DNA of 47,005 nt. It comes from Candidatus Blautia intestinavium. Its GTDB lineage: Bacteria > Bacillota > Clostridia > Lachnospirales > Lachnospiraceae. The notes beneath the pieces are model-generated. The model was not told the origin of the DNA. It was given only the letters and a program-made list of their open reading frames with translations, and made no database searches. Position numbers and translations under genes: made by a program. Shown here piece after piece: positions 6,047 through 13,544 of this stretch (its first letter is position 1; the number at the start of each line of letters is the position of its first letter). The DNA lies in contig DXGV01000015.1 in the NCBI GenBank assembly GCA_019113745.1, forward strand, positions 1 to 47,005, written 5' to 3'.

Positions 6047-6211
6047 ATGAAATATGAAGTTTTCTTTTTGCTGCAGCAATATTATAAAAAATATCCTGAA
6101 CGGTTCCATAAGGTAGAACCTCAGGAGCTGAAGGAAAAATATACGGAATTAAGATCGGAGCATGAAAAAAACAGCGTCAAAAGGCGCTGTTTTCCTGAAT
6201 CTCATCTATGA
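6047..6211 (+). CDS. Possible small protein of unknown function
   Basis: 54 codons from ATG at 6047, with GGGGGAAA about 12 bases upstream. The product is charged and helix-like (FLLQQYYKKYPERFHKVEPQ, then ELKEKYTELRSEHEK), which reads like real protein. The last ten or so codons run through the bidirectional terminator of the pfl operon and overlap the last codons of pflA on the other strand, so the 3' end may have been displaced or the gene truncated. I do not recognise a family. It could also be a fortuitous frame. Confidence 0.35.
   Translation: MKYEVFFLLQQYYKKYPERFHKVEPQELKEKYTELRSEHEKNSVKRRCFPESHL
6165..6194 (-). terminator. Intrinsic terminator of the pyruvate formate-lyase operon
   Basis: Stem ACAGCG (6171-6176) / CGCTGT (6185-6190), extended by A/T pairs, gives on the minus strand a hairpin followed by a run of seven T. 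It lies about 10 bp past the pflA stop codon. T residues on the other side could make it work in both directions. Confidence 0.8.
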
Positions 6212-6967
6212 TTTTCCTGTCCTGACCTGGCGGATACCTTCCAGAATGATATTCCTCGCTTCTTTTGCCTTTTCCGGCGACAGATTCTCAAGCCCCGCAA
6301 GAGGATAATCCAGTCCGAGATTTTTATATTTTACTTCACCCATGGTATGATATGGGAGAACTTCAAGTCCTTTCAGATTGCGGAATCCTCCGATCAGTTT
6401 TCCCAGACGGAGGAGGTGTTCCCGTGAATCCGTGATCCCCGGCACGACTACGTGACGTACGATCATGGGGATTCCGGCTTTTTCCAGGGCATGGGCAAAT
6501 TCCAGGATATGTTTCTGGCTCTGCGCGGTAAGCTTTTTATGGTCTTCTTCCGTACTGTGCTTGATATCAAGGAGCACAAGATCCAGAACCTGGAACAGTT
6601 TTTCATACTCTTTCTGTTTTTCTTCCTGGTACATGATTCCCGAGGTATCCAGGCAAGTTTGGATACCCTCTTTCTTCGCCGCTGAAAAAAGAGCGGTCAG
6701 AAAGGAAAGCTGCATCAGAGGCTCGCCTCCTGTGGCCGTGATCCCGCCGGATTTATAAAATACTTCGTTTCTTTTATACTCTCTCAGGATCTCCTCCACT
6801 GTCATTTCCGTTCCTTTTCCCGGCGTCCAGGTATCTGGGTTATGACAGTACAGGCACCTCATGGGACATCCCTGAAAAAATACCACAAAACGAACTCCGG
6901 GACCGTCAACGGTCCCGAAGCTCTCTGTGGAATGAATATGTCCCTTTGGGCTATATTCCTCCGTCAT
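6206..6967 (-). CDS. pflA: Pyruvate formate-lyase activating enzyme (radical SAM)
   Basis: 253 aa from ATG at 6967, which has AAGGAA eight bases upstream; a GTG two codons earlier (6973) is a poorer choice. The radical SAM cluster motif CxxxCxxC is in GCPMRCLYCHNPDTW near residue 30, followed by SAM-binding TGGEPLMQ. The enzyme abstracts hydrogen from a specific glycine of pyruvate formate-lyase to make the glycyl radical. Here that glycine is in the separate 80-aa protein directly upstream, whose stop codon is two bases before this start. The arrangement catalytic chain, radical chain, activase is a single minus-strand operon. Confidence 0.95.
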   Translation of the reverse strand: MTEEYSPKGHIHSTESFGTVDGPGVRFVVFFQGCPMRCLYCHNPDTWTPGKGTEMTVEEILREYKRNEVFYKSGGITATGGEPLMQLSFLTALFSAAKKEGIQTCLDTSGIMYQEEKQKEYEKLFQVLDLVLLDIKHSTEEDHKKLTAQSQKHILEFAHALEKAGIPMIVRHVVVPGITDSREHLLRLGKLIGGFRNLKGLEVLPYHTMGEVKYKNLGLDYPLAGLENLSPEKAKEARNIILEGIRQVRTGKS

Positions 6968-6969
6968 AA

Positions 6970-7212
6970 TCACATTCCTTCATGGAAGGTTCTGGAAATA
7001 ACCTCATCCTGCTGCTCTTTTGTAAGCTTATTGAAGTTTACCGCATAACCGGAAACACGTACAGTAAGCTGGGGATATTTTTCAGGATGGGCCTGAGCGT
7101 CCAGAAGTGTTTCTCTTGTGAATACATTTACGTTCAGATGATGGCCGCCTTTTTCTGCGTATCCGTCCAGTAAGTTTACTAAGTTATCTACCTGTGCGTC
7201 GCTGATGTTCAT
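6970..7212 (-). CDS. Stand-alone glycyl-radical domain, C-terminal part of split pyruvate formate-lyase (GrcA/YfiD-like)
   Basis: 80 aa. The whole protein corresponds to the C-terminal end of ordinary pyruvate formate-lyase: [18 protein letters not shown], then [15 protein letters not shown] with the radical-bearing glycine at residue 55. It has its own strong ribosome site (AAGGAGG, 10 bases before ATG). In Escherichia coli a similar free domain (YfiD/GrcA) repairs oxygen-damaged enzyme. Here, however, the neighbouring catalytic chain lacks its own radical domain, so this small chain should be an essential subunit, not a spare part. It lies between pflB and pflA in the same operon. Confidence 0.93.
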
Positions 7213-7277
7213 AATATGATTCCTCCTTATATTCTATAAATCTGGCTGCCGGAATCAGGCTCCTGGGGTTATCGTTG

Positions 7278-7322
7278 GCATCGGTGTACAATGGGCAATA
7301 CGCTCTCCTTGTACATTGATGC
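7278..7322. repeat. Dispersed repeat, copy B, palindromic, in the pflB-radical domain gap
   Basis: Arms GCATCGGTGTACA (7278-7290) and TGTACATTGATGC (7310-7322) are inverted repeats with two mismatches around a 19-nt centre that contains GGGCAATACGCTC. The sequence matches the core of copies A, C and D. It lies within the 195-bp gap between the two parts of the split pyruvate formate-lyase, so the transcript would carry the hairpin. Confidence 0.65.
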
Positions 7323-7407
7323 TATATTTACGAAAGAGTCATCCGGCGTATTTTTCTGTGTTTTCATAGAAGCTACTACAGATTGAAGTTTCATCTGCCG
7401 CTGTTTA

Positions 7408-9510
7408 TTACATATCGTCTTCCACAGTCAGGTTCGGCTCGCAGCATGCGCAGTCCGGCTCCATGGAGAAGCTGAGATCGCCCAGACTGATGGCTTCGTC
7501 CAGAATAACGGCGTCTTCTTTTCCGAGGGCGCCCGGAATAATGGAGAAGGTATTGGAAATACCATCCTGGCATTCTTTAAACGGAAGCTTCGCTACGGAA
7601 CTTAAAGAAGCTACCGCGCCGTGGCTGTCTCTTCCGTGCATGGGATTTGCGCCTGGCGCGAAGGGTTCTCCTGCCTTACGTCCGTCCGGTGTAGCTCCTG
7701 TATTCTTTCCATATACTACGTTGGAAGTAATGGTCAGAATGGAAGTGGTGGGGATTCCGCCTCTGTATGTCTGCGTGGTTCCCACATAATGCATGAAGTC
7801 TTTTACAATCTTGTACGCGATTTCGTCCACACGGTCGTCGTCGTTTCCGAATTTCGGATAATCGCCCTCTACCTCAAAGTCCACAACAATACCATTTTCA
7901 TCACGGATAGTTTTTACTTTCGCGTACTTGATAGCGGAAAGGGAGTCTGTGATTACAGAAAGTCCCGCAATACCTGTGGCGAACCATCTGGTCACATTTT
8001 TATCGTGAAGAGCCATCTGGATACGCTCGTAGCAGTATTTGTCGTGCATGTAGTGAATGATATTCAGCGCGTTCACATATACGTGGGACAGCCAGCGGCT
8101 CATATCGTTGTAGCGGTCCATAACCTCGTCGTAGTCCAGATACTCGGAAGTGATCGGACGGTATTTCGGTCCCACCTGCTTCTTGGTGATCTCATCCACA
8201 CCGCCGTTGATGGCGTAAAGAAGGCATTTCGCAAGGTTTGCCCGGGCGCCGAAGAACTGCATTTCTTTTCCTACTCTCATGGAAGATACGCAGCAGGCAA
8301 TGGCGTAATCGTCTCCGTGGGTAACTCTCATCAGATCGTCGTTCTCATACTGGATAGAGGAAGACGCAATGGAAGTCTTCGCGCAGAAACGTTTGAAGTT
8401 TTTCGGAAGCCTGGTAGACCACAGTACCGTAAGGTTCGGCTCCGGAGCCGGTCCAAGATTCTCCAGCGTATGAAGATACCGGAAGGACATCTTTGTTACC
8501 ATGCTTCTTCCGTCGATTCCCATTCCGCCGATAGACTCTGTTACCCAGGTAGGATCTCCGGAAAACAGCGCGTTATATTCCGGCGTTCTTGCGAATTTTA
8601 CCAGGCGGAGCTTCATGATAAAGTGATCGATAAATTCCTGGATCTGCTCCTCGGTGAACGTTCCGTTCTTCAGATCTCTTTCCGCATAAATATCAAGGAA
8701 GGTGGAGGTTCGGCCCAGGGACATCGCCGCGCCGTTCTGTTCCTTAATGGCTGCAAGATAACCGAAATACAGCCACTGAATAGCCTCCTGTACATTTGTG
8801 GCAGGTTTGGAAATATCATAGCCGTAAATCGTACCAAGCTGTTTTAATTCTTTAAGAGCCTTGATCTGCTCGGACAGTTCCTCTCTGTTGCGGATAACAT
8901 CCTCGTACATATTGCTTCGTGTTCCGGCCTTCTGCTCTTCTTTATCCTCGATCAGCCTGTCCACGCCGTAAAGCGCCACGCGCCGGTAGTCGCCGATGAT
9001 ACGTCCACGGCCGTAAGCGTCGGGCAGACCTGTAATAATATGGCTGGAGCGGCAGGCGCGCATTTCCGGGGAATATGCGTCAAATACGCCGTCGTTATGT
9101 GTTTTGCGGTACTTTGTATAAAATTCAACGATTTCAGGGTCAACGTGGTATCCGTTGTCTTCGCAGGCTTTCACTGCCATACGGATTCCGCCATTTGGCT
9201 GCAGTGCCCGTTTAAAAGGTTTATCTGTCTGAAATCCGACGATTTTTTCTTTTTCTTTGTTCAGGTATCCCGGTCCATGGGAGGTGATAGTGGAAATGAT
9301 GTGGGTGTCCATGTCCAGAACACCGCCTTTTTTGCGTTCCTCCTCGGACAGCTCCATTACCTGCGCCCATAATTCTTTTGTGGTTTCTGTAGGTCCGGCA
9401 AGAAAAGACTCGTCCCCGTCATAGGGGGTGTAATTTTTCTGGATGAAGTCGCGGACATTAATTTCCTTTTCCCATACGCCTCCTGTGAATGAATCCCATT
9501 CCTGTCTCAT
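7408..9510 (-). CDS. pflB: Pyruvate formate-lyase catalytic chain lacking the C-terminal glycyl-radical domain
   Basis: 700 aa. Formate acetyltransferase converts pyruvate and CoA to formate and acetyl-CoA in anaerobic cytoplasm. The catalytic cysteine pair is at 406-407 ([10 protein letters not shown]), and [17 protein letters not shown] plus the downstream [11 protein letters not shown] are the usual late barrel motifs. The chain ends in [20 protein letters not shown] with no RVSGYAV radical motif; usual full-length enzymes are about 750-760 aa and include it. That motif is supplied by the next gene. The start has AGGAGG eight bases upstream and a promoter at 9572-9599. The Cys-rich acidic tail (CACC) is unusual and could be an interaction or metal site; that is inference. 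Confidence 0.95.
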
Positions 9511-9571
9511 AAGTTTCCTCCTTGGCTTTAATTAAGTGCAGTTATATGTAACTCACATCTTATGCCAACAA

Positions 9572-9610: not shown

Positions 9611-9772
9611 TACTAATTCAAAAACATAGGCAGGGGGGCAATGTATAAAATTAAATACTTGACAAATTTTGTCACTTATAATCCGATCGACATTCATTTT
9701 GGTGTAGTGTTCATCGTTTTTATGTGCTATTTTTACATAAGTCTATATAATTCTTTATAAATTGCCTTCAAA
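9611..9772. promoter_or_regulatory. Gene-free AT-rich stretch with a TGACAAA dyad
   Basis: The gene-free interval from 9511 to 9811 is AT rich. Besides the pfl promoter it holds the perfect dyad TGACAAA/TTTGTCA with a single central base at 9660-9674, and TGGTGTAGTG at 9700-9709. The dyad could bind a regulator of the pfl operon or be a leftover integrase site. No gene is visible here. Confidence 0.35.
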
Positions 9773-10440: not shown

Positions 10441-10488
10441 AGCAGTATAGTAAACAGACCCTCTCCAATGTCTGTTTACTATACTGCT
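10441..10488. repeat. Perfect 18-bp inverted repeat at the integrase/IS110 junction
   Basis: AGCAGTATAGTAAACAGA at 10441-10458 is exactly mirrored at 10471-10488 around a 12-nt loop. No T-run follows on either side, so it is unlikely to be a terminator. It lies where the integrase remnant stops and just before the IS110 remnant. It may be an element end or part of the IS110 left-end RNA. Confidence 0.6.
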
Positions 10489-10491
10489 TGG

Positions 10492-10690
10492 AGATACTGT
10501 AGCCCTAAACAGTATCTAAATCTGTTGCTGGGGAGTGTTCTTATGATCTACGTTGGAATTGATGTTACTAAGGATAAGCATGACTGCTTTATCATTAACT
10601 CAGATGGTGAAGTCCTCTTTCCTGTTTTTATCATTCAGAATAACCGGAATGGATTTCTCTTATTCCCATATGGAAAAGCCTCACCATTAT
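10492..10690 (+). pseudogene. IS110-family transposase, N-terminal remnant with upstream hairpin
   Basis: From ATG at 10543 the reading frame begins MIYVGIDVTKDKHDCFIINS, the typical start of the DEDD (RuvC-like) domain of IS110 transposases, including the first acidic residue in GID. Homology fades after about 42 codons (NNRNGF), and the frame ends near 10728 without the rest of the roughly 400-aa protein. Upstream, AGATACTG (10492-10499) and CAGTATCT (10510-10517) form a perfect hairpin in the region where IS110 elements encode a bridge RNA. This is a truncated, inactive insertion sequence. Confidence 0.75.
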
Positions 10691-10691
10691 A

Positions 10692-10733
10692 CTTTCTTAA
10701 AAAGAAAAAGGGCAGTAGGGATTTTTAATGCCC
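10692..10733 (-). terminator. Intrinsic terminator of the DUF1275 gene
   Basis: Minus-strand stem GGGCA (10729-10733) / TGCCC (10710-10714) is followed by TTTTTCTTTTT. The DUF1275 stop codon lies within the loop. Confidence 0.65.
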
Positions 10734-12140: not shown

Positions 12141-13544
12141 TTATCTGCTTGTAGGCGCGCATATATAGGTATATTCTTTAAGCTTTCCACCGGAGAATAC
12201 AACCTTTACCTGCCAAGCATTTGCGTTGGTATAAGTTTTACCTCCATCATAGCTTTGGATATTATATTTACGGAATTTATTTTCCATTTGCTGCTTCGTA
12301 TCTCCTATCTTGACGCCATAAAACTGAACATTTGTGTTACCGCTGTTCTGGATACGGACATATTCATCCTTATACGTTCCATATAATGCATTTAGATTAA
12401 CACCTACTGTCATATTATTCCCGGTATAATACAGACTGGGATATTTGGAGTTTGTACTTTTTTTCATTCCGCCAATATCCGAGATCAATCTCTGCATCTC
12501 CGATCTGGAGACTCCCTGCTGGAAATAATTTTTCATCTCCACAACTTTTCCGGGGATAGAAACGCTCAGACCATTTTTATTATATCCGCCCCAGATAACC
12601 TTTCCGTTCACCCTTCTGTATGCCCGTACCGTGTACGTATATTTCGTTCCTGGTTTTACTGTGGTGTCCGTACAAGCCCATGCGGCTGCACTTCCGTTTT
12701 TTAATGCTTTCCATCCGGAATTTCCTGTCTTCCTGTATACTCTGTACCCGCTTGCCTGAGGAACCTTATTCCAGGTCAGGCGTACTTTTGTGGAAGAAAT
12801 AGTGCTGATTGTACCCAGACGTACCGTCCCCACAGATGTATTGGATGCTTTGGGAATCGTCACTGTCAGTCCTTTTTTATCATATCCGCCCCAGATAACC
12901 TTTCCGTTCACCCTTCTGTATGCCCGTACCGTGTATGTATATTTTGTTCCCGGCTTTACTGTGGTGTCCGTACAAGCCCATGCGGCTGCGCTTCCGTTTT
13001 TTAATGCTTTCCATCCGGAATTTCCTGTCTTCCTGTATACTCTGTATCCGCTTGCCTGAGGAACCTTATTCCAGGTCAGACGTACTTTTTGGGAGGAAAT
13101 ACGATTGACCGCACGCAGCCGCACTGTCCCCACAGATGTATTGGATGCTTTGGGAATCGTCACTGTCAGCCCTTTTTTATCATATCTGCCCCAGATAACT
13201 TTTCCATTTACTCTTCTGTATGCCCGTACCGTGTATGTATATTTCGTTCCCGGCCTCACCGTCGTGTCCGTACATGCCCATGCGGCTACGCTTCCGTTTT
13301 TTAACGCTTTCCAGCCGGAATTTCCTGTCTTCCTGTATACTCTGTACCCGCTTGCCTGAGGAACCTTATTCCAGGTCAGGCGTACTTTTGTGGAGGAAAT
13401 ACGATTGACCGCACGCAGCTGTACTGTTCCCACAGTATTATTTGCGGCAGATACTTCTGCGGCCCCTGATGTGAAAGTCAGACTGCCCAGCAACATCAAA
13501 GCCACAAGGAAAATCGTGCATAAAAACAATTTTTTCTTTTTCAT
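12141..13544 (-). CDS. Secreted protein with three near-identical Fn3-like repeats and a C-terminal domain
   Basis: 467 aa. Residues 1-34 form a signal peptide (KKKK, then LFLCTIFLVALMLLGSLTF, cleavage near SGAAEVSA). Residues 38-337 are three 100-aa units of fibronectin type III character, with KVRLTWNKVPQASGYRVYRK, YTYTVRAYRRVNGKVIWG and IPKASN. They differ by only a few residues. Residues about 340-467 form a different domain (VKIGDTKQQMENKFRKYNIQ), resembling small secreted domains whose role I cannot name. No LPXTG or membrane anchor is visible, so it is probably released or loosely bound. It is a single gene between its terminator and that of the EF-G-like gene. A role in adhesion or glycan contact is only a guess. 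Confidence 0.85.
   Translation of the reverse strand: MKKKKLFLCTIFLVALMLLGSLTFTSGAAEVSAANNTVGTVQLRAVNRISSTKVRLTWNKVPQASGYRVYRKTGNSGWKALKNGSVAAWACTDTTVRPGTKYTYTVRAYRRVNGKVIWGRYDKKGLTVTIPKASNTSVGTVRLRAVNRISSQKVRLTWNKVPQASGYRVYRKTGNSGWKALKNGSAAAWACTDTTVKPGTKYTYTVRAYRRVNGKVIWGGYDKKGLTVTIPKASNTSVGTVRLGTISTISSTKVRLTWNKVPQASGYRVYRKTGNSGWKALKNGSAAAWACTDTTVKPGTKYTYTVRAYRRVNGKVIWGGYNKNGLSVSIPGKVVEMKNYFQQGVSRSEMQRLISDIGGMKKSTNSKYPSLYYTGNNMTVGVNLNALYGTYKDEYVRIQNSGNTNVQFYGVKIGDTKQQMENKFRKYNIQSYDGGKTYTNANAWQVKVVFSGGKLKEYTYICAPTSR
12534..13433 (-). repeat. Three tandem 300-bp coding repeats
   Basis: Units at 13134-13433, 12834-13133 and 12534-12833 are each exactly 300 bp (100 codons) and nearly identical at the DNA level, including synonymous sites. 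This implies recent duplication or ongoing homogenisation and makes copy number prone to change. Confidence 0.9.

Follow-up and report, generated by a model that had tools for sequence, protein, structure and literature searches.

Pyruvate formate-lyase encoded as separate catalytic and glycyl-radical chains in Candidatus Blautia intestinavium and its relatives, with a linked cysteine module

Organization of the pfl locus

Pyruvate formate-lyase (PFL), which converts pyruvate to formate and acetyl-CoA, is a central fermentative enzyme and the textbook one-chain radical enzyme, and is destroyed by O2. In the window, by which we mean the whole 47,005-nt stretch of the Candidatus Blautia intestinavium contig DXGV01000015.1 analyzed here, we found this enzyme encoded in separate genes, in the minus-strand order PFL body, 195-nt gap, radical chain and pflA, with the following features:

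9517..9522: AGGAGG of the catalytic chain, 6 nt 5′ of its ATG, read from the sequence
7408..9510, minus strand: catalytic chain (body) of the split PFL, 700 aa (TIGR01255, 1122 bits, profile positions 2–679 of 744; PF02901)
8290..8295, minus strand: codons of the adjacent catalytic cysteines, Cys406-Cys407, from the translation
7411..7518, minus strand: acidic C-terminal tail of the body, residues 665–700, in the place of the radical domain
7441..7452, minus strand: cysteine module of the tail, Cys687, Cys689 and Cys690 (DCACCEPN)
7213..7407, minus strand: 195-nt intergenic gap from body to radical chain, without a third gene
7222..7227, minus strand: AGGAGG ribosome-binding site of the radical chain, 9 nt 5′ of its ATG, read from the sequence
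6970..7212, minus strand: stand-alone glycyl-radical chain, 80 aa (NCBI "GrcA3"; NF038360, 171.4 bits, cut-off 158)
7039..7059, minus strand: RVSGYAV loop with Gly55, the predicted radical site (codon 7048–7050)
6206..6973, minus strand: PflA, the PFL-activating radical-SAM enzyme (TIGR02493, 288 bits, cut-off 232)

The first-pass annotation of the window had described a 700-aa body that carries Cys406-Cys407 and ends before the radical domain, followed by an 80-aa gene that is this domain, with Gly55 in RVSGYAV, a strong ribosome site of its own and pflA next in line; both descriptions are borne out, including the coordinates, lengths and residues of the two chains. The body scores above the TIGR01255 cut-off (1122.1 against 994.2 bits) with coverage of only positions 2–679 of the 744-position profile, the remainder of which (663–744) is matched by the small chain. 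The Pfam glycine-radical domain is likewise divided, with positions 1–58 in the body and 51–106 in the small chain. Taken as a TIGR01255 PFL, the body has the adjacent cysteines and a cognate activase and lacks the same-chain radical domain. The break point lies just past ALGK (residue 664), a position from which the fetched one-chain PFLs, except that of locus L112, reach the radical-domain helix within about a dozen residues. The pflA gene adjoins the radical-chain gene, with a GTG start and a 4-nt overlap with the radical-chain stop.

Cys406 and Cys407, which align with the CC of Escherichia coli PFL, are invariant across 46 aligned chains, as are R52, V53, S54, G55, Y56, A57 and V58 across 23 aligned radical chains, in which 45 of the 80 columns are invariant. 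Between the window and three relatives, dN/dS is 0.02–0.04 for the body (at a dS of 1.4–1.8, which is near saturation) and 0–0.03 for the small chain, and these low values indicate that both are under purifying selection. A Foldseek search with the body returned E. coli PFL first (63% identity over the alignment). The single-chain AlphaFold prediction of the body has a moderate mean pLDDT of 73, with very low confidence in the tail (block means of 31–35 from residue 661 on).

A terminator scanner found nothing between the body and the small gene of the window, and no repeats of at least 24 nt were found in its 195-nt gap; with regard to attenuation, all 46 gaps of at least 60 nt from this and related loci were put through a strict script test, which detected no terminator-like hairpin. 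About 150 nt upstream of pfl there is a perfect 15-nt inverted repeat (9660–9674, with 7-nt arms TGACAAA/TTTGTCA around one base). A scan of the region 5′ of the body for four palindrome patterns of a potential redox operator, covering 76 loci, gave a sole match, that of the window (TGACAAAATTTGTCA); as the repeat was not found in the 75 other loci, its role is doubtful. Just upstream of pfl lies a fragment with a phage-integrase domain (PF00589; 9812–10156), and a further upstream stretch (10468–10728) reads by eye as the start of an IS110-type transposase, both being possible mobile-element remnants. Elsewhere in the window, 12141–13544 encodes a predicted protein of 467 aa with three 300-nt tandem repeats (84–90% like the reference copy), which by eye resemble fibronectin-type-III domains.

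Distribution and phylogeny of the split

Using the small chain as query, we took the best 80 of 573 confirmed hits as named loci. These include Blautia, Enterocloster, Lacrimispora, Hungatella, Ruminococcus albus and Holdemania, and also Olsenella, Collinsella, Enorma, Slackia, Atopobium and a Spirochaetales MAG. Of the 80, 79 contain a body, either complete or interrupted by a contig end (the exception being L067, without a body in the stretch examined), and all 79 display the arrangement sought in relatives, namely a truncated pflB in a frame separate from that of an adjacent short radical gene; as the 80 loci were picked by their likeness to the small chain, the proportion cannot be taken as a frequency. 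We also sampled 150 same-family genomes evenly, the window genome among them, and 128 of these match the small chain. Stand-alone radical chains, defined as matches in frames of at most 140 aa, are found in at least 60 of these 150 genomes (at least 68 genes), and most of the remaining matches listed belong to chains of roughly 750 aa or longer. Among 398 genomes of the phylum, 218 match the small chain at E up to 0.001; the GrcA3 cut-off is passed only by the window genome and one same-family genome, both with stand-alone chains, and three weaker matches lie in frames of 110–252 aa. The split PFL is thus widespread and not peculiar to the window genome.

The gaps between the body and radical-chain genes range from −17 to 446 nt across the 79 loci (that of L047 being measured from a misread stop) and are bimodal in size, with 45 below 110 nt, 7 of 110–200 nt and 27 of at least 200 nt. 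Their lengths modulo 3 are distributed 21/31/27, and this spread across the three frames argues against read-through or frameshift into one long chain, a possibility that we rejected on this ground. A ribosome-site core of at least 5 nt precedes the radical chain in 64 of the 79.

A quick IQ-TREE phylogeny of 117 bodies (78 split and 39 fused; LG+G4, with long branches flagged) places all the split rows together with five fused ones in a single branch (SH-aLRT 99). This clade spans Bacillota, Actinomycetota and Spirochaetota, and the nesting of Coriobacteriia among Bacillota suggests transfer. The tree needs three changes between the split and fused states, two of which are forced by well-supported branches, and is most simply explained by one split and two re-fusions. 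An AU test kept the tree in which all split rows are held together without the five fused ones (p 0.152); re-fusion, the likely origin of the five nested one-chain PFLs, therefore leans also on one of them, L112, whose cysteine-rich joint is as expected from such an event.

In the family sample, a full-length PFL was defined as a match of at least 57% identity in a frame of at least 700 aa. Among the matches listed, such a PFL accompanies the stand-alone chain in three of the 60 genomes (G085, G119 and G132) and was not found in 57. Searching 40 genomes chosen from the named loci with the body as query (E up to 1e-40), many of them drafts or MAGs, we found only the split PFL in 35 and a second PFL in five, four of these being full-length and one in pieces. 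In the window assembly, a MAG of 82.7% completeness, the body and the small chain each occur once. Among the five genomes with a second PFL is that of the sister strain Blautia caecimuris DSM 29492, in which it is full-length (777-aa frame, 63% identical), and another close relative, Lachnospiraceae S14_Bin1, has a full-length PFL too. The full-length PFL found with L129 (B. caecimuris DSM 29492, G151) and with L128 (G150) is of a separate clade, with QTINPDALGH at the joint; these two loci are the nearest relatives of the window on the tree, and their second PFL was not found in the incomplete window MAG. The check for a second full-length pflB thus turned up none in the window MAG and one in the sister strain, whose copy means that a single copy in the MAG is no proof of a sole enzyme. 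In the lineage of the window, the split PFL may not be the only PFL, and the term "obligatory", which the first-pass annotation applied to the radical chain, is weakened for the window species.

Two stand-alone radical chains are present in eight of the 60 family genomes, among the matches listed. Five extra radical-chain copies (L024, L029, L190, L191 and L192) have no body gene in the adjoining stretch examined. In L024 and L192 (G042 and G112, respectively), the extra body-less chain lies directly downstream of a gene that by eye resembles a Crp/Fnr-type regulator and may constitute an inducible supply of radical chains.

A cysteine module linked to the split

Long gaps between body and radical chain mostly contain a further gene (66–89 codons in the 32 first read), unlike the gap in the window, and no separate third chain was found in the window genome; Lacrimispora xylanisolvens is one of the three-gene species. 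The encoded third protein, of about 75 aa, starts out as half a radical domain, comprising helix and strand and lacking the radical loop; this N-terminal half aligns with the small chain over 31 columns (hhalign probability 96, E 1.7e-9). The C-terminal end has the consensus SLDCxxGxxACxVPTLxEGLD in 20 aligned members. Most third proteins have two or three cysteines, and those of L010 and L014 stop soon past the CxxC. An HMM search recovered the third gene in L010, L014, L091, L094, L095 and L147, and not in L065, L071 and L082. No curated family scored above its cut-off for the four members tested, the family has no significant PDB match (the best being 9ugr, Syn-F4-Link, at E 0.014), and the predicted fold of the third protein of a relative is one helix at low confidence (pLDDT 56).

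In short-gap loci it is the body tail that bears cysteines, often in a similar motif (e.g., CSNGACGTPTLFEGLD). The cysteine half of the third protein is matched (E up to 0.001) by 22 of the 79 tails, whereas none of the controls, 79 shuffled tails and 13 fused joints, reaches this level. The match of the window tail motif is weak (E 0.03), so its kinship with the third protein is a reading and not a proof; L107 (0.0003) and L109 (0.0006) are possible bridges, by sequence, from the window tail to the third protein. Read by eye, the stretch from ALG to the helix contains at least two cysteines in only one of the 39 fused PFLs, that of L112.

Tail and third gene obey an either-or rule, in which a tail is counted if it has two or more cysteines, a threshold framed post hoc after the tails had been seen. 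In the 80 named loci, 51 have such a tail and no third gene, and 27 have a third gene and no such tail; L059 has neither, nor was a third gene found elsewhere in its 1.2-Mb assembly. In the family sample, which partly overlaps with the named loci, the third gene is present in 38 of the 60 genomes counted as having a stand-alone chain, and the body tail is free of cysteines in all 38; the other 22 have no third gene, and in each of them the tail beside the radical chain has at least two cysteines. The rule is hence kept in 60/60 family genomes and 78/79 named loci. In 36 of the 39 genomes that have it, the third gene immediately precedes the radical-chain gene (24–301 nt between match edges). 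In G002 and G130 it is on another contig, away from PFL (at L188:1596–1898 and in L189 near 2247–2477, respectively), and the body tail is bare, suggesting that the module can act in trans. The gene next to the third gene of G002 reads by eye as a MoxR-type ATPase. Among the 90 family genomes without a counted stand-alone radical chain, the third gene was found in one, the 67% complete G006, and in the phylum sample it was found in one of 398 genomes, one that has the split PFL. At least eight switches between the tail and separate-protein forms are seen on the tree. The split is accordingly near-perfectly linked to the cysteine module, an element overlooked by the first-pass annotation.

Two chains as one enzyme

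The window enzyme shares the barrel, the cysteine pair, the radical loop and a dedicated PflA with the one-chain PflB of E. coli (TIGR01255) and differs from it in having the radical domain as a separate gene and an extra acidic cysteine tail on the body. An engineered counterpart is E. coli PFL cut after residue 695 (tPFL, 1–695) and combined with YfiD/GrcA, with a near-identical cut and a separate radical domain; that pair represents a weak-binding repair route, whereas the window split is the genomic state, without the YfiD arm and with a new tail. In the study of these constructs, binding of YfiD to tPFL is undetectable and activation 32-fold lower, the activity of tPFL once activated with separate YfiD equals that of the wild type, and the first 60 residues of YfiD also matter for binding (PMC8683613). 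Other studies state that E. coli PflB G734A yields formate with GrcA and none without it (PMC12338860), that grcA and pflB fall together in Fannyhessea vaginae (−17.96 and −14.31; PMC11979175), which bears on the present case if its pflB is split, and that Fusobacterium nucleatum is without an autonomous glycyl radical cofactor protein (PMC12288474). As the natural pair resembles the weak-binding tPFL/YfiD pair (the same cut and no arm), it should need other means of joining the chains, for which the tail or the third protein would be the obvious candidate. Control through a small partner has a precedent in benzylsuccinate synthase, another glycyl-radical enzyme with small partner chains (BSS-beta and BSS-gamma), where one of these chains is described as promoting thiyl-radical formation (PMC12590467). 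The BSS subunits have a [4Fe-4S] cluster and a HiPIP-like fold, as against mostly two or three cysteines and half a radical domain in the third proteins, and a tail only in the window.

The database name of the small chain, autonomous glycyl radical cofactor GrcA3, favors a different role, that of a GrcA/YfiD-type spare part for O2-damaged full-length PFL, with the 700-aa chain being decayed or auxiliary. The small chain is a member of NF038360 by score (171.4 > 158), and the name, by which alone we judge the family here, implies a free cofactor protein; the partner in the window, however, lacks a radical domain of its own. The full-length second PFL in two close relatives, the 8/60 genomes with two radical chains and the five extra copies without a body in the adjoining stretch agree with this role, but no full-length PFL was found in 57/60 family genomes (among the matches listed) and 35/40 named genomes with the split, and the body is under purifying selection with Cys406-Cys407 kept. 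The small chain also lacks the N-terminal arm of about 60 aa that YfiD requires to bind well (PMC8683613) and, with a score of 98.7, falls short of the classical GrcA (TIGR04365) cut-off of 170, its residues 19–79 aligning to positions 65–125 of the 126-position profile with only 18 residues preceding. We therefore consider the spare-part role very unlikely, and "GrcA3" is better read as a subunit. The breakage of one gene through an assembly or sequencing error, which the incomplete MAG could have invited, has a negligible probability and is already refuted by independent isolate genomes with the same split (B. caecimuris DSM 29492, Ruminococcus albus 8 and Collinsella tanakaei An368); the split further recurs in MAGs of many projects, with separate ribosome sites and with gap lengths that span −17 to 446 nt and cover all frames.

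The cysteine module, in turn, could be a by-product, with acidic tails that drift and happen to contain cysteines and a third gene that is an unrelated neighbor. The variability of the tail sequences, the weak match of the window tail (E 0.03), the post hoc framing of the rule, the partial overlap of the samples and the exception of L059 are all compatible with this. It is nonetheless an unlikely account, as tail and separate protein are mutually exclusive in 60/60 family genomes and 78/79 named loci with at least eight switches between the forms, as 22/79 tails match the cysteine half against none of the shuffled tails or fused joints, and as the third gene is found in 38/60 split genomes against 1/90 others and in 1/398 of the phylum sample, again with a split PFL.

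We conclude that the window enzyme is very probably a naturally split PFL, with the small chain docked non-covalently as its radical domain. The claim that it is a true two-chain enzyme and not one with a spare part, already made in the earlier reading, is well supported by its conservation in three phyla, by purifying selection on both chains, by the rarity of full-length PFLs beside it and by the full activity, once activated, of E. coli PFL cut near the same place with a separate radical domain. In the mechanism we propose, the 700-aa chain would form the PFL barrel and carry the reactive cysteine pair, and the 80-aa chain would insert where the C-terminal domain of a one-chain PFL sits, without a covalent bond. 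PflA, the product of the neighboring gene, would place the radical on Gly55, from which it would pass across the chain boundary to Cys406-Cys407, allowing pyruvate and CoA to be converted to acetyl-CoA and formate. The cysteine-cluster tail of the body would stand in for the lost covalent link, and this tail, or elsewhere the separate half-radical-domain protein, might aid docking or shield the open active site. We propose from these sequences that the cysteine module docks or guards the detached radical chain, its cysteines possibly serving as a disulfide latch, a metal site or a radical guard.

A more elaborate and tentative reading, which we hold to be somewhat less probable than its negation, is that of a three-part machine, in which a cysteine-pair module, borne by the body tail or by a separate protein made of a duplicated, loop-less half of the radical domain, would be required wherever the radical chain is detached. 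The module would fill the radical-domain groove whenever the radical chain has left for activation or replacement and, as a thiol or metal latch, would set when that chain may enter, thereby serving as an O2-safety device able to act in trans.

The best PDB sequence match to the body is chain A of 38lb (Formate acetyltransferase), of which residues 22–737 of 739 align to an Olsenella body, with a tail ending in ...ENKPDCACAADASAKEGCED; by its sequence, 38lb is a split-type catalytic chain already in the PDB. The radical chain matches 34 PDB sequences, none of them from 38lb. Another entry, 38la, stops at LGKED shortly beyond the split point and could be either a native chain or a cut construct. 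Neither entry is among the best 50 Foldseek matches listed from a copy up to 2026-04-08, so others may be working on split PFLs now. In the open-licence PMC literature, we found no title or abstract opening that names a split PFL or GrcA3 and no biochemistry on any natural split PFL. The family of the small chain is already known as GrcA3, and the cysteine module seems to be the part that is as yet undescribed.

These observations mean that PFL is encoded in parts in Blautia, Ruminococcus albus, Collinsella, Olsenella, Lacrimispora and other anaerobes, and that a curated family labels one of these parts as a free cofactor protein, with consequences for the way in which PFL is to be counted and expressed. 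Split PFLs offer natural systems for the study of a radical that crosses a chain boundary and of the swapping of damaged radical chains, and they also allow one to ask what a thiol module does near a glycyl radical, a function that the either-or rule makes directly testable.
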